Below, piece by piece: positions 13,262 to 55,930 of a stretch of DNA of 64,000 nucleotides; position 1 is the stretch's first letter; every line of letters starts with the position of its first letter. This stretch comes from Prorocentrum cordatum. Lineage: Eukaryota > Sar > Dinophyceae > Prorocentrales > Prorocentraceae. Position numbers and translations under genes: made by a program. The notes under the pieces were generated by a model that had not been told where the DNA came from, did not search any database, and saw only the letters and a program-made list of their open reading frames with translations. The DNA is taken from NCBI GenBank assembly GCA_963575745.1, contig CAUYUJ010001432.1, positions 10,001 through 74,000 of the forward strand, read 5' to 3'.

Positions 13262-13820
13262 AATCTTCGGGGGCGGAAAAGAGGGGGGTGATGACTAGGG
13301 GTGGGTGGGTATCATGGCGTGGGCCATGATATTTCCCCAGATTTCATGGCGCCTCTTCTTATTAATCGCTTCGCTCATGCCGCCGGCCCTGGAGCCCTCT
13401 TTAGGGCCTCTTGGGGGCCTCTTGGGGACCTCTTGGGAGTCTCTTGGGGCTCCTTGGCGGCGTTTTGGAGGCCCCCAGGGCCTCTTGGGGGGCTCTTGGG
13501 GGTAGTCGATTGCGGCTCCCCCCTCGGAGGCCACGATCCTCGTGAGGGGTGTCGAAAAATACCCTCCCCTGGAGTGGTCTGGTGGCTTCTCCCGGGCTTC
13601 TCTCGGGACCTTGCCGGGGTACTTTTCGTCCGGGGGCCCCCAGGGGCCGCTCCGCGCGCGCGAACTAGAAATATTGTTAACAAGTTACCGGAGATCTTAG
13701 CACGCCTCTGGCCCGTTGGGCCGGCGAATTTCATTACGTCCCTGGCCCCCCCGCTGGGCCGCGCACATGCCGCCGGTCATGATTTGCACCCCCCCTCTTG
13801 GACACCCCCCTCTTGGCCGC
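13262..13820. repeat. Low-copy repeat carrying a 365-bp insertion (occupied site)
   Basis: Flanks 13262-13363 and 13729-13820 align in order with 22312-22500, which lacks the middle. Shared text includes GGGGGCGGAAAAGAGGGGGG, CCAGATTTCATGGCGCCTC and TTTCATTACGTCCCTGGCCC. Confidence 0.8.
13364..13728 (+). mobile_element. 365-bp mobile segment, copy 1
   Basis: Begins AATCGCTTCGCTCATGCC and ends GTTGGGCCGGCGAA. Almost identical to 48886-49250. Contains degenerate GGGGCCTCTTG repeats and ATCCTCGTGAGGGGTGTCG. The paralogous site near 22400 reads straight from left to right flank. No TIR or coding capacity was seen. Confidence 0.8.
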
Positions 13821-25302: not shown

Positions 25303-25338
25303 GGAAGCAGGGTTCACCGATGTGCACTCTAGCTCGAG

Positions 25339-28300
25339 ATGCCACGCCGTAACATCAGAGAGGTGCAGGCACTGGCCGTGGAGGCAAACACCAGGAGAAA
25401 ACTTGCGCGTCAACAGGAGCAGGAGAAGGCTCTACAGAGATTGACAAGAGATGAACTAGCGTCAGTTACCAGAGCTCGAATCATGCAAGTGCCTCATGCG
25501 ATGGTTAGTCTTGTAGGGAACGCAATGGCGAGAGCAAAACGTTACATTAGCGAGCTGACGGAGCCCCTTGCCGTGATGATACAGGAGGGACGAATATTGC
25601 AATCTAGAATGGCACTGGAAGATCAATCCGAAAAAGTTGGTGAGAATAGGAAAACACTTCAGATTGACAAGCAACGAATTGCTACTTTGTTATGGTGCGC
25701 TGACAGGCTGTTTAAGCTGGCAAACCGATTGGCCACAGCTACCAACGCAGGCGCGCGGGTGCGCATGATACAATGTGTCGATTTTTCTGCATACGACGAG
25801 ACTCCCATGAACATCCGAGGAGGCAGCGCGAGCGACCCTGGCGCTGGAGATAGACAGCGCCAACTGGTGTTACCTTCGTTCAACGGCCAGCTCGCTTTGC
25901 AGGCGGTGAAACGCCCGCGGGCGCAGGGTGATACTAGGACGAAGTTGTTCTGCATCGGGTCAGGCTTCGCTTTTACAATCGAGTATCGCCCCCCAGGGCA
26001 GGACATGAACAAATACATGATATTCATGGGCACGCAAGTGAACACTTGCCACAGAATACAATTTAATTCGATAGAGTGTATGTCCCGAGCGCTGATCGAT
26101 GCAGACCCCACGTCGTTGGCAGAAGACGTGTTCAAGCAGAAAACTCGTGTCTTCAGTGCCGATCGTCATGCCAGCAACCAGGGAGCCCACAACAGACTGA
26201 TGATGCAGCGAGACAGCTTGTGGAAAAGTCTGGGTTTCGATTGCGAAGCTCACATCAACTTCAAGGCGCACGACGAGGCTGGTGGATATGTGAAATGGGC
26301 TCTGCGAGGCATGTGTAATATTGAGCTGGCGTTGGAAAATGCTGGGGATACAAATTCATTCAGGTATTGCATCCAGGAAGTCATCAAACACAAGATCAGG
26401 TTTTGTCGTGGAAAGGCACCAGATGAAACGATCGTCTACAAGCACTGCGCGATAAGAACCTTTTTGGCTGGGCACTCGCAGGGACTTCAGCGACATATAC
26501 TCTTCTCAGTCTTACCAGATGGTGATTGGACCGACCAGCAGTGGATAGACATTTGGGCGCCAACAGATGAGGAGTTCAATGAGCCTGAGCTTAAGGATCA
26601 ACTTGCGGCGTCAATTGCCGTTGCACTCTTACCCGACATGTTGCAGATCATCAAGTGCCACCGTTGGAAAGGCGCCGAGGGCGCTGTGAGTGGTATCGGC
26701 CTGCTGATAGTTTTCCACAACGTTCTCGATCCAGCTTTCAGGATGTTCGTCGACAGATTTCGCACTAGCGGTCAGAGGGCTGCTGGTCATGGCCCTGCGC
26801 AGGACGAGGGCGCACATGTGGCCCATGGGGCGATCACCCCTGCGGAGCCCCACCACAATCATCCCGACCACGACGAACCTGGCCCAGCTGACGGCGACGC
26901 CGAAGTTAGCATGGCAGAAGCTTCGAATGCACAGCGGAAGGGGATGGCCAATCATGCACGCTCTGGGCTTAGCTTTCTCGAACGCGTTTCGCCGACGCCC
27001 CATGCAGCGACCCTTTTGTTGAGGAGCGTACTCAGGCCTTTACAGACGATGTTGGACGCACAAGGTAGGCTGAGTTCGAAGCGTTGGGAACTACAGCAGC
27101 AAGCTTCTGCTGCGAGAGCTGCCCTCGAGCAGCCTGGACAGGCAGGCGATCTGAATGGGGACTTTCGAGTTCTTGTTGCTGCTCGTGGTGACTTGGAGAA
27201 TTCGCTGTTCCAGAAGTTTCGGGCGCTCTTGTTTGATGCGCGCGTGTGGTTACTTCTCTTGCCAAACGAGGTGAACAACAAGACGCGCGCGACAGCCTTC
27301 CCCATGATCCAGAAGGCTGGCGGTGTGATTGAGAGATTGACCGCACGCCCGCACAGGCTCCCACCATTCAACAATTTCCTGGCATTGCAACAGCCAGATC
27401 TGTCACAGTCGATAGTGGACCAACCAGAGTGCACCAATGACGAATGGACCAAGCAACTCCACGAAGCTTACCCAGACTTGAGTTCACAAGAAGCTAAGGC
27501 CGTATTGATTTCCCACGCTCTGGTCTCTTTCACCAACATCATGCCGCGCGAATGTTTCCACGCGCACGTTCGGAGAATTTCGAAGTCCAGGATCCAGACG
27601 CATGCCATCGACACGCCGACGCTGGGATCAGAGTTGGTGCACTCCCATTTCCGCCGTGACCAGCCTGGGCCAGCATCTGCAAACCGAGACGCCAGTGATG
27701 GAGCAGCGCAGCGTGGCCCTCCAGAACCAGAAGCAGCAAGCAGCGGGGTAAGACGTCTCGGCCCGTCTGGAGGTCCTTGGAGGGTGTTTGCGAGAAGAAT
27801 GCGCAACAATAATCTCCGAGAAGTGGGTCATCAATACCGTGCCTTGAAGGCGCACCCTGACAGCGCCGAGTTCCAGGCCCTTCTGCAAGAGGGCGCCGAC
27901 GCAACAGAGCGAGCTCATAATGGGGAACTTGCGTTCGGGTGTCGAATGGCAGACATTGCCGACCGCAACAGAGCCAGGGTTGCGATGTCATATGTCAAGG
28001 ACTTGGCGGGCGACGGGACCGACGAGAACCAGCTGGAGGAGGTGTGCGCAGCCATGGGCACCCCTGAGTCTGCTAATAGAGTTCTTGCCGCAATGCAGCG
28101 TCACAGAAAGAAGGAAGCTCGCCAGGCCCTACTTGATGACAAGGCGGCGCTTGCAAAATATGCTGAGGAGCGCACTGGAGACGCGACCGCTGCGATGGAC
28201 AGGGTGTCGCCTGGTTTGGCCAACACAGACAATGCCTTCGCTGCTAGGGGGCCTGCATGCGGTATCGATATACTCGAACTTCAGCCATCAGCTATTGCGG

Positions 28301-29037
28301 GCGCCGTTGCGCATGCTTTTCAGCACCAGAAGGACGCGGGCACGAAGAACAACTTCGGCGTCGCATTGGACAATTTTTGGAACCATCTGCACAGGCTCGT
28401 CGGCGAAACAGAGCAGGTTGGGCCAGCGAGGTCAGCGGAGAGAAAGGCGCCTTCCCAATGCTGCAAAGCTGGTGTTTGTTTGCACAACAGAGCTGGGCAA
28501 GAATTGCACCGTCTACGTAACGCGCTTCTACGGTGTATGAAGCAAGAGTTCCCAACACGAGATCTGTCCAGACGTGATCTTCTCAAGTTTGGTCATATTG
28601 TGTGCCGTGTGCTGCATGTTCCCGACGTGGATGACGAGGGCGAGCAGATGGAGTTATCCGAATTCTGGGGCCTTGCACCACGATGGTTTCACATCTGCGA
28701 CATGTCATTGAACCCATGCGAGCCCACATTCTCCGAGCTCGTGGAGGCCAACGAGGAGGAGAAGGTCGTCGCACACCCGATGGGGGACGAGGTTGCGCTG
28801 AAGGCCACCGCAGAGAGGGGGGACGACTTACAGCTAGACTTAAACATCCAAGCTGTGTTCGTGATAATGGGGGATTGGTTCATTGGAGTCGGGGCCGGTT
28901 GGGCCGCTCGGGGGTTGGGCATTTCTCGAGTTTTGGTGATGCAGTCTGGTTTGAGTCGTTCGCCTTGCTGCTGGCCCAGGCGACTGGGGCCTGGTCTGAA
29001 CATTGCGACTGTCTTGCAACGTGGGATCGGAAAGTGA
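25339..29037 (+). CDS. Large lineage-specific protein, main exon; hAT-like motif
   Basis: An ATG-initiated frame of 1232 codons. Composition is protein-like to about residue 1175 (28865), then turns irregular, so the real exon probably ends at 28790-28866. GAG|GTTGCG at 28791 is one donor candidate. Residues 10-60 are charged and helical. Around 275-305 the string DRHASN, then CEAH 27 residues after the Asp, matches the D..(A/S)N...C..H block of hAT-type RNase H-fold transposases. Residues 480-530 are low-complexity His/Asp/Pro. A second folded region (870-1160) ends W-HICDMSLNPCEPTFSEL. No transposase C-terminal dimerisation motif was seen. A domesticated transposase or a dinoflagellate expanded family are both possible. 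A possible spliced-leader relic lies just upstream. The start is the first ATG in the frame. Confidence 0.7.
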   Translation: MPRRNIREVQALAVEANTRRKLARQQEQEKALQRLTRDELASVTRARIMQVPHAMVSLVGNAMARAKRYISELTEPLAVMIQEGRILQSRMALEDQSEKVGENRKTLQIDKQRIATLLWCADRLFKLANRLATATNAGARVRMIQCVDFSAYDETPMNIRGGSASDPGAGDRQRQLVLPSFNGQLALQAVKRPRAQGDTRTKLFCIGSGFAFTIEYRPPGQDMNKYMIFMGTQVNTCHRIQFNSIECMSRALIDADPTSLAEDVFKQKTRVFSADRHASNQGAHNRLMMQRDSLWKSLGFDCEAHINFKAHDEAGGYVKWALRGMCNIELALENAGDTNSFRYCIQEVIKHKIRFCRGKAPDETIVYKHCAIRTFLAGHSQGLQRHILFSVLPDGDWTDQQWIDIWAPTDEEFNEPELKDQLAASIAVALLPDMLQIIKCHRWKGAEGAVSGIGLLIVFHNVLDPAFRMFVDRFRTSGQRAAGHGPAQDEGAHVAHGAITPAEPHHNHPDHDEPGPADGDAEVSMAEASNAQRKGMANHARSGLSFLERVSPTPHAATLLLRSVLRPLQTMLDAQGRLSSKRWELQQQASAARAALEQPGQAGDLNGDFRVLVAARGDLENSLFQKFRALLFDARVWLLLLPNEVNNKTRATAFPMIQKAGGVIERLTARPHRLPPFNNFLALQQPDLSQSIVDQPECTNDEWTKQLHEAYPDLSSQEAKAVLISHALVSFTNIMPRECFHAHVRRISKSRIQTHAIDTPTLGSELVHSHFRRDQPGPASANRDASDGAAQRGPPEPEAASSGVRRLGPSGGPWRVFARRMRNNNLREVGHQYRALKAHPDSAEFQALLQEGADATERAHNGELAFGCRMADIADRNRARVAMSYVKDLAGDGTDENQLEEVCAAMGTPESANRVLAAMQRHRKKEARQALLDDKAALAKYAEERTGDATAAMDRVSPGLANTDNAFAARGPACGIDILELQPSAIAGAVAHAFQHQKDAGTKNNFGVALDNFWNHLHRLVGETEQVGPARSAERKAPSQCCKAGVCLHNRAGQELHRLRNALLRCMKQEFPTRDLSRRDLLKFGHIVCRVLHVPDVDDEGEQMELSEFWGLAPRWFHICDMSLNPCEPTFSELVEANEEEKVVAHPMGDEVALKATAERGDDLQLDLNIQAVFVIMGDWFIGVGAGWAARGLGISRVLVMQSGLSRSPCCWPRRLGPGLNIATVLQRGIGK

Positions 29038-48771: not shown

Positions 48772-49305
48772 CAGGAGGGAAAGAAGCACACAGACACAAT
48801 GAATCGTCGATTCCCCAGAGAAAGTATGGGAGAATATGGGAAGTGGCCCAGAAAATATGGGAAACTATGGGGAATATGGTTATTTAATCGCTTCGCTCAT
48901 GCCGCCGGCCCTGGAGCCCTCTTTAGGGCCTCTTGGGGGCCTCTTGGGGACCTCTTGGGAGTCTCTTGGGGCTCCTTGGCGGCGTTTTGGAGGCCCCCAG
49001 GGCCTCTTGGGGGGCTCTTGGGGGTAGTCGATTGCGGCTCCCCCCTCGGAGGCCACGATCCTCGTGAGGGGTGTCGAAAAATACCCTCCCCTGGAGTGGT
49101 CTGGTGGCTTCTCCCGGGCTTCTCTCGGGACCTTGCCCGGGTACTTTTCGTCCGGGGGCCCCCAGGGGCCGCTCCGCGCGCGCGAACTAGAAATATTGTT
49201 AACAAGTTACCGGAGATCTTAGCACGCCTCTGGCCCGTTGGGCCGGCGAAACTATGGGGAATATGGTTATTTGTGTCTATTTATTTGTGTGTCCCAGTTC
49301 CCCTT
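48772..49305 (+). mobile_element. CAGGAGGG-family MITE, itself interrupted
   Basis: CAGGAGGGAAAGAAGCACAC to GTCCCAGTTCCCCTT. Flanks GCTTCGCT and CATTCGCT. The uninterrupted flank GCGCTTCGCTTCCTCCTCC exists at about 56198. The internal sequence is split at 48886-49250 by the 365-bp segment. Confidence 0.8.
48886..49250 (+). mobile_element. 365-bp mobile segment, copy 2
   Basis: Same sequence as 13364-13728 to within a few bases, placed inside a CAGGAGGG MITE. The host sequence ACTATGGGGAATATGGTTAT plus TT is exactly repeated on both sides (48864-48885 and 49251-49272, 22 bp; 25 bp if GAA is included). Confidence 0.85.
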
Positions 49306-49408
49306 CATTCGCTTCCTCCTCCCCCTCCGCACCTCTAGCAGGGCAGAGGTGTGCGTATGCATTCCGTGGCAGCACGTCCCCCCGTACTGCTCTCGGTGGT
49401 CCTCGGGC

Positions 49409-49423
49409 TCCTCGCGGTCGTCG
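49409..49423. repeat. Left 15-bp target-site duplication of the LINE
   Basis: TCCTCGCGGTCGTCG, identical to 55916-55930. It abuts the first base of the spliced leader. Confidence 0.9.
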
Positions 49424-49445
49424 GCCGTAGCCATTTTGGCCCAAG
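49424..49445 (+). promoter_or_regulatory. Genomic DinoSL copy at the LINE 5' end
   Basis: GCCGTAGCCATTTTGGC followed by CCAAG. Against the 22-base DinoSL there is one difference (C for T at position 18). The leader is normally added to mRNA by trans-splicing. Its presence as DNA directly after a target-site duplication means the inserted copy was made from a trans-spliced RNA, or that the element carries a leader as part of its 5' end. Confidence 0.92.
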
Positions 49446-49589
49446 ACGGAGCTTACCTCCCGTCCCGACTCCAGAGGCTCGAGGCCGAGGTGGAAGGGCA
49501 GCCCCTTCCCAAGGCCTGGCTGCCTCGGCCAAGCTTTCAGCAGTGAGCTCCTGCAGGAGCTATTTCTTTCGTGTGAGTGTGGTCAGCGG

Positions 49590-50804
49590 ATGGCCCCCGC
49601 TCTTGATGACAAGGAGTGGGATGTTCTGCTCGGCCCACGCAAGCCAGAGTGGGCGTGTGGCTCGTGCACGCGCCTGCACAACTGGGCGTCGAGGATCAAG
49701 TGCGAGTGCGGGCGCTCGGCACCAGCCCACATTCGTGCACGTGCAGTCACTGCCCACAAAATTGCGTTACAGCAGCTCGAGAGTGGTGGTGGCAAAGCCC
49801 GTGGCAAAGGGAAAGGTGGCGACAAGCCACAGAAAGGCGGTGCCAAAGGTGACAAGCTTGGTGCGCTGGAAAAGAAGCTTGACTCCCTCGTGGCATCGCT
49901 GGCAAAGAGTACCAGTACGAGTACTACGAGTACCGTACCTCAAGTTCCACCGTGGCAACGTGAGGCACAGCATAAGGCGGCTGAGACGGCGGAGGCAGCT
50001 CCAGACACTGACGAAGGGCGACGAGCTAAAGTTGCGGTCCAGGTCCAAGAGCTGGAGGCCTCCATCAAGTCTATGGCCAAGGATGATGAGTTCAAAGACA
50101 TACGGGAGAGCATGGAGAAGAAGTTGTCCAGCTTGCGCGACCAGCAGAAGCAGATGCGGCCGCCTCAGACAGCTCATAGGCGTGCAGCCCAGGAGCTCAG
50201 CAAGGCGAAGGCGGCGATCGAGCAGATGTCGAAGGATCTGGTCGACAAGCGTGAGCAGTACGAGAAGTTGCGTGTATCCATCGAGGAGCGCGAGCAGTCG
50301 TTGGTGGCAAAGAAGGAGCAGCTGGTGGTCTTGCAGACGGAGTTCGACAGGACTGCCAAGCTGGTCTCACAGAAGGGTGAACGTGGAGAAGGAGGCGAGC
50401 AAGGAAAAGCAGAACCAGGCTCAGTGTTGCTCCATGACGTCGACACCTTCAAGGCTGAGAATCCAGAGGCTGAGGCGTTCCTCAACAGCGATCTCTGGAA
50501 GAAACTGCAGGAGCACATCCGCGTCCTGCCCAAGGAGGCCGAACCTGATGCTGGCATGGGTGTTGCGCCTCCTGGTGATGGTCAACGTGATGGTGGCGGC
50601 GGTGGAGCAGCCCAACCTGGTGCAGGTGACGGCGCAGCTAGCGCCGCGCGAGGCAATGATGCAGCCAGTCAAAAGCGTAACAATGAGCTCAGTGAACTCT
50701 CGGAGGAAGAGCGGAAGAACCTGTGGGCCCACTCCGACAGCTTCGAGGATTTCACTGCCAAGTTGGAGGAGCTCTACTCGGCTAAGCGTGCGCGTTTGGG
50801 GTGA
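49590..50804 (+). CDS. LINE ORF1 protein: zinc finger plus coiled coil
   Basis: 404 residues. Residues 21-40 form a RanBP2-like zinc finger (W21, C23, C26, N31, C38, C40). Residues 65-90 are a Gly/Lys-rich basic stretch (GGGKARGKGKGGDKPQKG), likely nucleic-acid binding. Residues 95-120 are Ser/Thr-rich. About 145-270 is a long coiled coil (VQVQELEASIKSMAKDDEFK to LVVLQTEFDRTAKLV), probably for multimerisation. The C-terminal 130 residues are acidic and Gly-rich, ending SAKRARLG. LINE ORF1 proteins coat the element RNA in a ribonucleoprotein. The ATG at 49590 is the first in frame after the leader, and the finger starts 20 residues later. Another frame (49351-50804) is also open across the whole gene but reads Arg/Ser-rich and looks like a shadow. 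Confidence 0.85.
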   Translation: MAPALDDKEWDVLLGPRKPEWACGSCTRLHNWASRIKCECGRSAPAHIRARAVTAHKIALQQLESGGGKARGKGKGGDKPQKGGAKGDKLGALEKKLDSLVASLAKSTSTSTTSTVPQVPPWQREAQHKAAETAEAAPDTDEGRRAKVAVQVQELEASIKSMAKDDEFKDIRESMEKKLSSLRDQQKQMRPPQTAHRRAAQELSKAKAAIEQMSKDLVDKREQYEKLRVSIEEREQSLVAKKEQLVVLQTEFDRTAKLVSQKGERGEGGEQGKAEPGSVLLHDVDTFKAENPEAEAFLNSDLWKKLQEHIRVLPKEAEPDAGMGVAPPGDGQRDGGGGGAAQPGAGDGAASAARGNDAASQKRNNELSELSEEERKNLWAHSDSFEDFTAKLEELYSAKRARLG

Positions 50805-50991
50805 TGGTGACCTCCTTGCGCATGATGGTTGTACTACGTCGGAGGGGGTAGTGGTCAGCCAACACTCCCTTCGATCATCGAGGACCAATGTTGTTGGCGC
50901 TGCAGATGCTGAGCGTCCTCCTGGCGGCGAGGGGAGCGAGTGCGCCAGCCGCGCCTCCCCTGTCAGACCGACTTCTGAGGGCGCTGCGCCG

Positions 50992-53900
50992 ATGGCTGCG
51001 CGCCCAGCCCAGGGAGCTTGTGCTCCACAGGACAGATATGATGCGAACGGTTTCCTCTTGCCTCTAGTGACAGGTTTCAGGCCAGCTGCGTTTCCTCCCT
51101 CGCAACCTGAAGTAGGGCAGATCGCTGGTGAGCATGTCATTGAAACGTTCAATTGCAGTGGAGGCAAGAGTACGCTCAAGAAGCGGCTCAAAGTCACTCG
51201 AGCGTTAGTCGTGATTGTGCAAGAGTTTGGTCACGTGGCCGATCAGGTTGAGGCCATTCAGAGTTGGGCACAAGTGCGAGGATGGAGTCTTATGGCGTTG
51301 CCTTCCTGTCCCTCAGCAGGCAACGTGCCCAGTGCAGGTGTGGCTGTTTTCGTGCGCAGTGAGTGCGGTGTGCGCGCGCCACAGCTCGGTGTGCATCAGG
51401 TGTGTGAGCATCGCGTGCAGCACGTACAACTTGATCTTCCAGGGTGGCCTACCCTACATCTTATAAATATGTACCTGTATCCAAGCTTAGGCCCTCAGGG
51501 CAAGAACGCCAAGTTGATGGCAGCAGCAGGTGCAGTAGTTGAGAGTATTGACGGTCCCTGTATAGTTGGGGGTGATTGGAACATGTCTCCTGACGAGGTC
51601 GAGGCTTCAGGTTTCTGTAGTTTTGCTCGTCTCACCCTTGTCTCTACTAAGCTTTACACTTGTCGAGGTGGTACGGGTAGCTCGATAATTGATTTTTTCG
51701 GGTTGAATGATCCGTGCATGCGTGCGTATAAACATGTTAAGCTAGACACGCGATGGGCGATCAGGCCCCATAGACCCGTGCAGCTCGCCATAGCCAGTCA
51801 GGGATATCGAGTGCAGCATCTAGTGTATACTGTTGCCCCTGCTCTTCCTATTTCCCCCCCTTTCGGTCCTCAACCCTGGCCGCCAGATTGGGGTCCTGCG
51901 AGGGGTTTGGTGGAGCGCTGTGTCGAGATGGCGGGGGATGAGAAGACCGATCCAGGGGTAGTGCATCACTTGCTTAGCACCAGTTGGGGCAAGTTTGCCC
52001 AGATCGCTGCACGGCATATCAGTACTTGCACTGGGGGCGCGAAAGATACCTTCGGCAGTTTCGGGCGCCAAGTTGCACCGCGCTGGGTCAATGTGGAATA
52101 TCCCGTGCCAGACGACACTGAAAAATGTTTAATAGCTGATGGGTGGCAGTGGCTTCGCAACGCAGTCCAACACCTAGGCCAGTTAGCTGATTTAGATGAC
52201 ATGAATGAGCATACACAGCAAACGATGCTTGCCGAGCTGGCGTTTTTTCGTGATAATGACTATCCAGGGCTCGGTTTGAGCGCTCGGTTAGATTATTCGG
52301 TTCAGCAGGCCCGCAAGATGCTGTGTTCTGAGTTCTTTCGTGAGAATGTGGAAGAATTTCTCGAAGACATTGCTGAGGACGTCTCTGTGGCCGTCAAAGG
52401 TGCATCAAAAGAGATCCAGACCAGCTGGAGTGATTGGTGCAAGACTGCCAGCATGGGGGGAGCGCGGGGCCTTCATAGGGTCACGAAGGTTCGGAGTGTT
52501 GTTTTGCCTACGGTTGTGCACGACCCTAAAGGCCCCAGTGCTGATCCCCACAGTGTCGCGCAGCATGAGCTGCAGATTTATCGCAAGCTCTGGCGAGCGA
52601 CCGCCTCCCCACCGGTTGCCTGGATTCCCGATCGGTCCAGTTTCCCGAGGGCGGCTCCGGGTGAGGTTCGTAAGGTGATCCAGAGTTTTTCGGAATCTAC
52701 AGCTAGGTCCTTGGATCAGTTTCATCCGAGGCATTTCTTGTTGCTCGACGACGACGGATTAGATTTGCTAGCAGGTTTGTGGCAGTGTTGCGAGGCGATT
52801 GGCCTCTTACCTAAGCAGTTGCTGTGGGTGCTCATGCCAATGCTGCCTAAACCGTCGTCTGGGCATAGGCTCATAGTGCTTTACAGCGGTATGTATCGCA
52901 TCTGGCAAAGGCTGCGGCGGCCTATGCTAGGATCGCTTATGGAGGAGGTGGAGCGTGGGTACTGGGGGGCTAGTCGGGGGAGGAGTTCTGTGGACTGTGC
53001 CTGGGCACAGGCAGCGCGAGCTGAGGCTGACGTAGTCTCGCGCCGCTACAGTGTGCTCATTATCGCCGACTATTCGAAATATTACGAAACGATCCCCCTT
53101 GTGGAACTTCGGGACAAGTTTCTTGCGTTTAAAGTACCCACTGCATTTTTGAAACTCGTTTTCAATGTATGGAGGGCTCCTCGAGTGCTACGTCTCAGAC
53201 AGCACCACTCTGAAGGGGTCGCACATGCCGAATTCGGGTTACCTGCAGGCGATTGCTTCAATGATATCAGCATCAAGGTGCATGCTGTGAAGTCTTTCGA
53301 TCAGTTTGTTGCTAGCCAGCCGACACTAGTCAATTTCACATCGTATATTGATGACTCGGGCATTCAGATTTCCTGTGGCCAGAGACAGAGTGCGGTGCAA
53401 TTAGCAGTCGATGCAGGTCGTGCCTTTTATCACGCGAGCAGGCAGATAAATGCAGCAGTTAATGATAAAGTTGCTGTTGTTGCCAGCGATATTTCACTTG
53501 CACGCGACGTCGTGTGTGGCTTAGGGCTTGAGCCCAAGGTTGCGAAGCAATCGGTCACATATCTTGGCGTAGATGACAGTGCTGGTGCCAAGCGCTCTGC
53601 TGCTCGTGCGCGTGTAAAACAGCGGTCCCGCCTCTGGGGAATGAAGCTGCGAGTGAAAAAGATCGGCAGGTTTAAGTCCCGAGCTCCGAATAAAGAGACC
53701 AAGAAAGGTCTCTCACAGGTCATTCGCACGGGTGTTGCTCCTGCTTCGTCGTACGGTTCTGAGGTTTTGGGCTTTTCGGATGCTGAGCTTAACACTGTGC
53801 GAAGGACCCAGGCTCGTCGGTTGCCGCCCTCCCATGGAGGGACCAGTGCCACGGCAAAACTCGTTTTGTACGGAGAGTGGGACACACGAGCTGCCGTTGG

Positions 53901-55845
53901 CCCTGCTCTCCAGTGGTGTCGCATGTTGTGGAATGCCCAGGTCAGTCCCAATCGATCCCTGATCCCTTTCCAGGAGTTGCTTCAGCTTTGGGAGCAGGCC
54001 AGGGCTAGCGAGGCTAGCGATTGGAAGTCCAGCCGTGGCCCCCTTGCGCGTGCCACGTTGTCGGCTCGACGTGCAGGCTGGAAAGTGGTATCAGGCACGC
54101 AGTGGATTGACCATTGGGGCTGCACAGTAGATGTGAGTAAGACTCCCCCTCGCCTCCTCCTCGATCTCCTCCGAGAGGGATTGCAGCGAGAAGCGGAGCT
54201 TCGTTTTGCACGCAGGTTAGGGCACGCGCACGGTATGCGAGCCACTTTCGACCTTGTGCGCAATTGCATGTGTACGCGTAATAAGCAGCACACGCGTCAG
54301 CAGCAGTTCCTTCTCTTGTCGTGCGCCACGGATGCGATATGGACCGAGGCGCGCGCGTGTGATGCTGGTTACCTCACGGATGGCATGTGCGTGTGCGGCC
54401 AACGTGACACGTTGCACCATAGGTTGTACACCTGCACGCGTCCTGAGGTGGTGGAGGCCCGACAGTCTCTAGACATTCCGTCGGAAATTTTGAACGAGGG
54501 GGCACACAGCGATGATCCTGTGTTTACTCGTGGTTTGTTCACGTTCTCGGATGAAGATGTGCCCCCTCCAGCCACCCACGCTCATTGTGACATCCTCGAC
54601 GGCGCAGGTCAGGATTTGAATATGCAGCCTGAGGAGCTCGCCACGCTTGCAGGTGATGTGATCGAGCTTGAGATGGCCTCCGACGGCAGCTGCACGAAGC
54701 AGGCCCTCCGCTGTCTCCATCGTGCCTCGTGGGCGATCGCCCTCATGGAGCCAGGCAGCGAATCGCTTCTTGCCATCTTGAGGGGCATTGTTCCTGGCGG
54801 TCTCCCCCAGACCCCTGCGATGGCCGAGCATGCGGGGGCGGCCCTGGTCGGGCAAGTTTCAGATCGCCCCGCGTCGTTGGCCCTCGATTGTAAAGCTGTG
54901 ATTTGTCAGACGCAGAGGCCCCTCTGGAAACAGCTGAGTGGTTCCAATAAATTTGCTGGTGCGAGGCGGTTTGCCCATGAGCTAGCAGGCACTGAATTTC
55001 TGTCCACCTTCCATGTAAAGGCCCATCGAGAGCTCTCTGCCCTTGAGGACTTGGAAGGTGATGATCGTAGGTTTGGTTTTGCGAATCGTGCTGTGGATGA
55101 GCATGCCAAGAAGGCCCTTGAGGGCCATCCTCGGCCCCTGCCCACCTTTTTGGACCACGTTGAGCTGTACCAAAATCGAGCCAATGCGTTTATAAAGCTT
55201 GCTTCCGAAGTTTTACCCCTCTTCAAAAATGAGGTGCGTTGGAAGCGAGCTGCTTTCACAACCCAGGGTCGTAGTCGTCAGCAGAAGACCTGGCACCTCT
55301 GGAGGAGAACCGAACTGGGCATGCAGTGTCGTTATTGTTGGACGGTGTGTGATCGACCCGATCGGCCCATTTTCGGGTGCAGGGGACCGCCTCCTGCTCT
55401 CCAGAAGCTGCTGCGCGATCCCCTTGGGCACCAACTCGTCGCCGTGTCGGGCTCGGTTCTTGATGCTCCTCTGTCGGACCTGGTTCTGGGCCCCTGCCGA
55501 GAGCAGCAGATTCTGTGTTTGAAATGTGGGGGTTGGTCCCAGGGTAGAGCCCTAAAGCTCGCTGAGGTCTGTGGTAAGCCAACGCGGAAAGGACTGGACG
55601 TCCTGAGCCGTTTTCGTCGTGGGCTTGGCCCCAACATGAAGATCAAGGCCTTGATTGAGAAGGCGTTGCCTGTGTCAAGGCTCGATGTTGCCCTTGAGTC
55701 GGATGATAAGCCCGAGCTGTGTGTTACCTCAGTCCCGCGAGCATTTGCGGACTCTCCCTCGGCCCCCACTTATGAGCAGCGAATGGCGTCCCTGGTCGCC
55801 AGAATTAAAGCTAAAGAAGAGGCAAGAGCCTCCAGGGCGGTTTAA
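50992..55845 (+). CDS. LINE ORF2 polyprotein: endonuclease, reverse transcriptase, RNase H
   Basis: 1617 residues from the first ATG after ORF1; the frame is open further upstream, so the start could be earlier or reached by frameshift. AP-type endonuclease about 65-265: E78 (VQEFG), D195 and N197 (GGDWNMSP), SSIIDFF near 232, RPHRPV near 259. Reverse transcriptase about 540-850: D693 (IIADYSKYYET) and the catalytic YIDD at 785-788, with Ile in place of the usual Ala. RNase H about 1225-1375: D1231 (SDGSC), E1279, D1299 and D1369 (VDEHAK), a complete D-E-D-D set. The last 200 residues hold CRYCWTVC and ILCLKCGGWSQGRALKLAEVC, a zinc-like C-terminal module. ORF2 nicks DNA and copies the RNA. 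Intact throughout. Confidence 0.9.
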   Translation: MAARPAQGACAPQDRYDANGFLLPLVTGFRPAAFPPSQPEVGQIAGEHVIETFNCSGGKSTLKKRLKVTRALVVIVQEFGHVADQVEAIQSWAQVRGWSLMALPSCPSAGNVPSAGVAVFVRSECGVRAPQLGVHQVCEHRVQHVQLDLPGWPTLHLINMYLYPSLGPQGKNAKLMAAAGAVVESIDGPCIVGGDWNMSPDEVEASGFCSFARLTLVSTKLYTCRGGTGSSIIDFFGLNDPCMRAYKHVKLDTRWAIRPHRPVQLAIASQGYRVQHLVYTVAPALPISPPFGPQPWPPDWGPARGLVERCVEMAGDEKTDPGVVHHLLSTSWGKFAQIAARHISTCTGGAKDTFGSFGRQVAPRWVNVEYPVPDDTEKCLIADGWQWLRNAVQHLGQLADLDDMNEHTQQTMLAELAFFRDNDYPGLGLSARLDYSVQQARKMLCSEFFRENVEEFLEDIAEDVSVAVKGASKEIQTSWSDWCKTASMGGARGLHRVTKVRSVVLPTVVHDPKGPSADPHSVAQHELQIYRKLWRATASPPVAWIPDRSSFPRAAPGEVRKVIQSFSESTARSLDQFHPRHFLLLDDDGLDLLAGLWQCCEAIGLLPKQLLWVLMPMLPKPSSGHRLIVLYSGMYRIWQRLRRPMLGSLMEEVERGYWGASRGRSSVDCAWAQAARAEADVVSRRYSVLIIADYSKYYETIPLVELRDKFLAFKVPTAFLKLVFNVWRAPRVLRLRQHHSEGVAHAEFGLPAGDCFNDISIKVHAVKSFDQFVASQPTLVNFTSYIDDSGIQISCGQRQSAVQLAVDAGRAFYHASRQINAAVNDKVAVVASDISLARDVVCGLGLEPKVAKQSVTYLGVDDSAGAKRSAARARVKQRSRLWGMKLRVKKIGRFKSRAPNKETKKGLSQVIRTGVAPASSYGSEVLGFSDAELNTVRRTQARRLPPSHGGTSATAKLVLYGEWDTRAAVGPALQWCRMLWNAQVSPNRSLIPFQELLQLWEQARASEASDWKSSRGPLARATLSARRAGWKVVSGTQWIDHWGCTVDVSKTPPRLLLDLLREGLQREAELRFARRLGHAHGMRATFDLVRNCMCTRNKQHTRQQQFLLLSCATDAIWTEARACDAGYLTDGMCVCGQRDTLHHRLYTCTRPEVVEARQSLDIPSEILNEGAHSDDPVFTRGLFTFSDEDVPPPATHAHCDILDGAGQDLNMQPEELATLAGDVIELEMASDGSCTKQALRCLHRASWAIALMEPGSESLLAILRGIVPGGLPQTPAMAEHAGAALVGQVSDRPASLALDCKAVICQTQRPLWKQLSGSNKFAGARRFAHELAGTEFLSTFHVKAHRELSALEDLEGDDRRFGFANRAVDEHAKKALEGHPRPLPTFLDHVELYQNRANAFIKLASEVLPLFKNEVRWKRAAFTTQGRSRQQKTWHLWRRTELGMQCRYCWTVCDRPDRPIFGCRGPPPALQKLLRDPLGHQLVAVSGSVLDAPLSDLVLGPCREQQILCLKCGGWSQGRALKLAEVCGKPTRKGLDVLSRFRRGLGPNMKIKALIEKALPVSRLDVALESDDKPELCVTSVPRAFADSPSAPTYEQRMASLVARIKAKEEARASRAV

Positions 55846-55915
55846 CTCGGGTCGATCCCCCCAAGCTTTTGGTGCTGTCACCTCCCGACCTTTCAAGGCG
55901 CTGTCCATCCATCCA

Positions 55916-55930
55916 TCCTCGCGGTCGTCG
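55916..55930. repeat. Right 15-bp target-site duplication of the LINE
   Basis: TCCTCGCGGTCGTCG, preceded by the CCATCCATCCA tail. Confidence 0.9.

Follow-up and report, generated by a model that had tools for sequence, protein, structure and literature searches.

LINEs of a dinoflagellate nuclear genome that begin with the host's spliced leader

Spliced leaders in retrogenes and mobile elements

APE-type LINEs include the L1, I and Jockey groups. Relic copies of the dinoflagellate spliced leader (DinoSL) and DinoSL-tagged retrogenes of dinoflagellates were reportedly described by Slamovits and Keeling in 2008. In passages of more recent work, a leader followed by a 15-nt relic is described as the trace left by a second trans-splicing (PMC3229502), and relic leaders serve to count dinoflagellate retrogenes, which are put at 22–25% of the genes in Symbiodinium genomes (PMC12014239, PMC6050394). 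The enzyme that makes these retrogenes is called unknown in a passage of one of these papers, which leans towards Ty1/copia (PMC6050394).

The LINE analysed here lies in a window of 64 kb, by which we mean the whole stretch of DNA under study. It resembles the DinoSL-tagged retrogenes, as the passages concerned portray them, in the genomic leader at the 5′ end of the inserted cDNA and in the existence of tandems of leader and 15-nt relic (PMC6050394, PMC12014239, PMC3229502). What distinguishes the case from these retrogenes is that the tag sits on a LINE encoding its own endonuclease (EN) and reverse transcriptase (RT) and that it persists across many copies of one family. EN and RT domains, two ORFs, target-site duplications, a simple 3′ tail and 5′ truncated copies are shared with APE-type LINEs, and the RT profile matches the structures of R2 and L1; unlike in L1, I and Jockey elements, however, the 5′ terminus of the window family is the host's spliced leader.

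Two further systems come close. The trypanosomatid L1Tc/ingi LINEs with Pr77 likewise live in a trans-splicing host and carry a short conserved 5′ block, but Pr77, in the passages concerned, is not a spliced leader: it spans 77 nt at the 5′ end, activates transcription and gives rise to unspliced transcripts (PMC8190864, PMC4748587). In Hydra, the host leader is found on about 30% of the Iso-Seq reads of transposable elements, which is, unlike the situation in the window family, an observation at the RNA level; genomic copies starting with a leader are undescribed in the passage concerned (PMC12220107). No LINE with a spliced leader at the start of its genomic copies was found in those parts of the literature covered by our search, subscription papers and preprints lying outside it. 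In the genome studied here, leader-headed LINEs comprise the whole window family as sampled and recur in other LINEs. Such an arrangement provides a way to ask how a parasite lives in a genome in which messages receive their 5′ end from the host.

Anatomy and class of the window element

The window element is a full-length LINE of the AP-endonuclease type and belongs to the nuclear genome of a dinoflagellate. It occupies positions 49424–55915, possesses both ORFs in complete form and is enclosed by perfect 15-bp target-site duplications. Its features are:

49409..49423, + strand, left target-site duplication, 15 bp, identical to 55916–55930
49424..49445, + strand, DinoSL at the 5′ end of the element, G followed by CCGTAGCCATTTTGGC[C]CAAG
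49446..49472, + strand, 27-nt block behind the leader, conserved like the leader (2.0% pairwise divergence), candidate downstream promoter or 5′UTR signal
49473..49589, + strand, remaining 5′UTR, 9.7% pairwise divergence
49590..50804, + strand, ORF1, 404 aa, first in-frame ATG at 49590, stop codon at 50802–50804
50992..55845, + strand, ORF2, 1617 aa, first in-frame ATG at 50992, stop codon at 55843–55845
51145..51684, + strand, AP-type endonuclease domain (Exo_endo_phos, PF03372) in ORF2, E = 6.8e-9
52846..53571, + strand, reverse transcriptase domain (RVT_1, PF00078) in ORF2 with SYIDD motif, E = 2.8e-7 for the piece
54673..55119, + strand, tentative RNase H-like stretch, recognized by eye and without Pfam match
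55905..55915, + strand, 3′ tail of CCAT units, CCATCCATCCA, running on into the TCC of the right repeat
55916..55930, + strand, right target-site duplication, 15 bp

The sequence-only reading of this DNA had already described the repeats, a DinoSL match of 21 out of 22 bases from the first base inside the left one, and ORF1 and ORF2 followed by a CCAT tail that abuts the right one, all of which was borne out. The 15-mer TCCTCGCGGTCGTCG has just two occurrences on the + strand of the window, at 49409–49423 and 55916–55930. The segment CCGTAGCCATTTTGGCCCAAG at 49425–49445 corresponds to DinoSL with one base changed, and 21 of 22 bases match if G 49424 is counted as the ambiguous first leader base D. 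On both strands of the window it is the sole site with up to three mismatches to DinoSL, and none of 100 shuffles contained such a site. The deviating base, a C in place of T, is absent from all other family copies examined and recurs in one leader elsewhere in the genome, on contig C29. The branch leading to the window copy measures 0.0027 changes per site, which marks the copy as young.

The start codons of both ORFs are the first in-frame ATG triplets. ORF1 contains, as read by eye, a cysteine cluster near the N-terminus and a coiled-coil-like middle part, and has no Pfam match. EN and RT reside in a single ORF, ORF2, as expected for APE-type LINEs (PF03372 and PF00078); the RVT_1 score is 27.0 bits for the whole ORF2 against a Pfam cut-off of 29.6 bits, and 30.9 bits for the RT piece alone. 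The assignment to this class agrees with target-site duplications of variable sequence (15 bp in the window copy, 14 bp in the sister copy L024), the simple 3′ tail and the occurrence of 5′ truncated copies, truncation being judged by eye for the three leaderless among 41 matches (see below). The relationship of the RT to LINE RTs became visible with a profile built from seven leader-bearing LINEs (the window LINE and six sampled ones), which matches the structures of R2 (1.2e-30) and of L1 ORF2p (8.1e-22); D189 and D283–D284 are invariant across the seven. The window ORF2 alone gave no match against the PDB at 0.01. In the window copy and L024 the duplications enclose the leader, which forms the exact 5′ end, as in DinoSL-tagged retrocopies, but these are host genes without transposition enzymes of their own, whereas ORF2 carries EN and RT.

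Leaders in sister copies and in other LINEs of the genome

In the genome searched (4,128,499,153 bases on 21,875 contigs) the first 400 bp of the element have at least 41 matches, a lower bound obtained with 40 of 470 candidates scored. A leader start is present in 38 of them, of which 35 continue with the family's own 5′UTR (leader at 0–3 mismatches, one copy being tandem) and three (L067–L069) with a 5′UTR unlike that of the window family. These three nevertheless possess the ORF1 region of the window family. The remaining three (L062, L065, L066) are without leader-like sequence and look truncated. The 41 matches do not all represent separate insertions, as the upstream flank is common to L011/L012, L016/L028 and L022/L023; L067/L068, only 8.7 kb apart and with identical numbers, are probably duplicates. 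Otherwise, long similarity among 29 upstream flanks compared was confined to dispersed repeats (71–83%, few pairs). When compared with the sequences upstream of 29 copies, the window segment 49273–49423, which directly precedes the leader, yielded no match at E up to 1e-3 and is thus not conserved with the element.

A search blind to the leader, with the 27-mer that stands right behind it, yielded 193 places in the genome at up to three mismatches and none with the reversed control. The first 20 exact matches in contig order that were previously unseen copies all carry leader-derived sequence directly upstream, in 17 cases a single leader with at most one mismatch; in L083 the leader is decayed and followed by a relic, in L091 it has an internal deletion and in L089 it is decayed, with an insert. 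A leader or its remnant is consequently kept by all 55 untruncated copies with the family's own 5′UTR (35 among the 41 matches and 20 from the leader-blind sample). The earlier expectation that the progeny keep the leader thus holds for every untruncated copy examined, and no full-length copy was found that starts elsewhere without one.

At the opposite end, eight of nine 3′ ends fetched from other copies were readable and all terminate in a CCAT-type tail, the ninth consisting of N. L024 has its own 14-bp target-site duplication, TCCCTGGACAGAGG, while the other seven readable ends run into TCC-rich tracts, in which a duplication cannot be told. Both readable duplications (window copy and L024) begin with TCC, which would fit a pairing between tail and target. 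The base before CCGTAG is a T in four of the 48 family copies that could be scored (five of 53 were unscorable) and in 19 of 20 sampled genomic leaders. The family may either fail to copy the first leader base or start its RNA at the second. The missing T was dropped as proof of inheritance, the tandem copies L034 and L083 also being without it.

Leaders with up to two mismatches number 34,739 in the genome (reversed pattern: 11), and those followed by a 15-nt relic 2,747. A sample of 20 comprised the first ones listed, 18 on contig C1 and two on C2, all exact and hence biased towards intact leaders; it is small, restricted to two contigs and contains the overlapping loci L045 and L046. Fourteen of the 20 leaders head LINEs of two very different groups. 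L039, L041, L044, L048, L051, L056 and L057 encode ORF2 relatives of the window LINE with 20–35% identity, and L043, L045, L047, L049, L052, L053 and L055 form a second group, with EN and RT detected in all three members tested. The six other loci (L040, L042, L046, L050, L054, L058) are without LINE assignment. Because of the 14 LINEs, retrogene counts based on the leader tag need a LINE filter in this genome. The overlap of L045 and L046 (L045:5856–7801 equals L046:1–1946) reflects an arrangement in which the 3′ end of one leader-tagged LINE is immediately followed, within a single TCC tract, by another leader-tagged insert.

Of the 20 leaders, 15 are preceded within 60 nt by a tract of pure TCC or GGA, compared with 2.3–2.8% of background positions; L042, L044, L049, L050 and L056 lack such a tract. 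In ten of the 14 LINEs (L039, L041, L043, L045, L047, L048, L051, L052, L053, L055) the kind of tract found before the leader also follows downstream of the coding sequence, the exact 3′ ends being unfixed. Four of the six unassigned inserts adjoin the same TCC/GGA tracts as the leader-tagged LINEs, which points to LINE enzymes, rather than Ty1/copia, behind leader-tagged inserts; the six may themselves be LINE derivatives.

An exact leader plus 15-nt relic is present in four of the 20 sampled loci (L042, L047, L052, L054), two of which are LINEs. In L056 a fresh leader precedes a second one that is complete but decayed, and in L044, whose 5′UTR resembles that of L056, a fresh leader is joined inside a decayed one. 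From the tandem relics and these two double leaders it follows that LINE RNAs have been trans-spliced repeatedly over time. L056 and L044 illustrate two acceptor choices in LINEs with similar 5′UTRs. The 5′UTR motif GGATACCGCTAGTCCGCGGC of L067–L069 (contigs C17344 and C10964) is also found, with at most one mismatch, behind the leader of L039, L045 and L047, where the leader starts 47–62 nt upstream; these loci belong to two different LINE groups. The spread of the motif across groups suggests an exchange of 5′ ends or a common 5′ signal.

Origin and maintenance of the leader

The position of the leader inside the duplications and the leader-plus-relic tandems in other LINE families lend good support to the proposal, already contained in the sequence-only reading, that the leader originated by trans-splicing of a LINE RNA, which would then have been copied to its very 5′ end and inserted. 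Two other origins conflict with the genomic data. A single trans-spliced LINE mRNA could have been retrocopied here in the manner of a processed gene, the normal family starting elsewhere; the T to C change of the window leader, seen in no other family copy examined, would suit such an event. It is refuted by the copies, given the 193 family 5′ places with a leader in 20 of 20 sampled and the leader in 38 of 41 matches, and we regard it as highly improbable. Likewise, the frequency of leaders in the genome (34,739) might suggest a LINE that inserts right behind pre-existing genomic leaders. In the window copy and in L024, however, the left duplication lies outside the leader, so that the leader must have arrived with the insert, and a target preference of this kind can practically be dismissed. 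A ribozyme-made 5′ end was rejected as well on the grounds that positions 49300–49800 have no Rfam match at E up to 1 and that the 5′ 167 nt fold barely better than shuffled sequences (z = −1.69, 13 of 200 shuffles at least as good).

The more difficult question is whether the leader is inherited or remade. Pairwise divergence among 29 copies amounts to 2.3% in the leader, 2.0% in the next 27 nt and 9.7% in the rest of the 5′UTR; L028, a partial duplicate, was left out, and copies conserved in leader and block are favoured, since the probe that retrieved the set contained both. For ORF1 the corresponding values are 11.8, 10.5 and 23.9% at codon positions 1, 2 and 3, and third positions diverging about twice as much as first and second ones are a likely sign of past selection on the protein. 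Conservation of the leader was rejected as proof of its renewal, the following 27 nt being equally conserved. Tandems of leader and relic, which the sequence-only reading had suggested looking for, do exist in the family but are rare, with four places against 193 5′ ends, although a 42-base pattern with up to three mismatches, compared with 27 bases for the 5′ ends, undercounts decayed tandems. They were seen in four of 20 sampled leaders versus two of 55 own-5′UTR family copies; as these two samples were drawn differently, a Fisher test on the counts was set aside. Moreover, L067, L068 and L069 have the leader variant CCGTAACC (pattern CCGTAACCATTTTGGCTCAAG) in common, with L067 and L069 being 87% identical; the variant could stem from a variant SL RNA gene.

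The rarity of tandems, the equal conservation of the next 27 bases and the shared variant argue for a captured leader that is mainly inherited, and the earlier idea of a fresh leader in every cycle fits these data less well than inheritance as DNA. The opposing scenario, a more precise form of that earlier idea, assumes that read-through transcription from outside is trans-spliced at the last AG of the leader (CAAG|ACGG), whereby each cycle would produce a fresh, identical leader, the TCC target would act as pyrimidine tract and no promoter of its own would be required. It would account for the leader or remnant in all 55 untruncated own-5′UTR copies, and it draws on the tandem relics, by which re-splicing of LINE RNA is evident in several families, and on L056 and L044, with a new leader before a complete decayed one and inside a decayed one, respectively. 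On the other hand, published relict leaders are cut, in the passage concerned, at the AG after leader base 7 (PMC3229502), which leads one to expect tandems, rare as they are here; the 27 nt behind the leader are beyond the reach of splicing and equally conserved; the variant CCGTAACC is common to L067–L069; and several leader LINEs (e.g. L041, L048, L051, L053) stand behind (GGA)n, which is not a pyrimidine tract. We consider continual renewal unlikely, but retain it because an exact replacement at the last AG would yield DNA indistinguishable from the inherited form. A promoter-free cycle is to be counted among the possible ones.

We favour, with some confidence, a leader captured once, inherited mostly as DNA and only occasionally spliced anew. 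Long ago, the RNA of an ancestral element would have received the leader by trans-splicing, as host mRNAs do, and would then have been copied to its end and inserted by the enzyme that the element itself encodes, an origin supported by the anatomy described above. The captured leader would now form the first 21 bases of a conserved 5′ block of about 48 bases, which is mostly passed on as DNA and probably serves transcription start or a 5′UTR function. Occasional re-trans-splicing at an AG inside the leader would generate the tandems of leader and relic, which are seen but rare. Insertion appears to favour TCC sites; to judge from tail, duplications and targets, the reason is probably base pairing between the CCATCC tail of the RNA and the GGA at the end of the nicked strand of the target. 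Further LINE groups in this genome would have obtained or renewed their leaders independently, leaving tandems more often.

A more far-reaching proposal would make trans-splicing by the host a necessity for all LINEs of this genome: the host would rebuild their 5′ end every cycle, the leader would act as its own splice acceptor, the (TCC)n target would serve as pyrimidine tract and no promoter would be needed. We judge this generalization to be rather unlikely. If true, a whole LINE fauna, comprising two deep groups or more, would have one life cycle in common, with a 5′ end that belongs to the host.

The element is flanked by repeats on both sides. Its upstream flank 48884–49250 is 99.7% identical to positions 13362–13728 of the window, and a stop-to-stop ORF of 1234 aa extends over 25333–29034 on the + strand.
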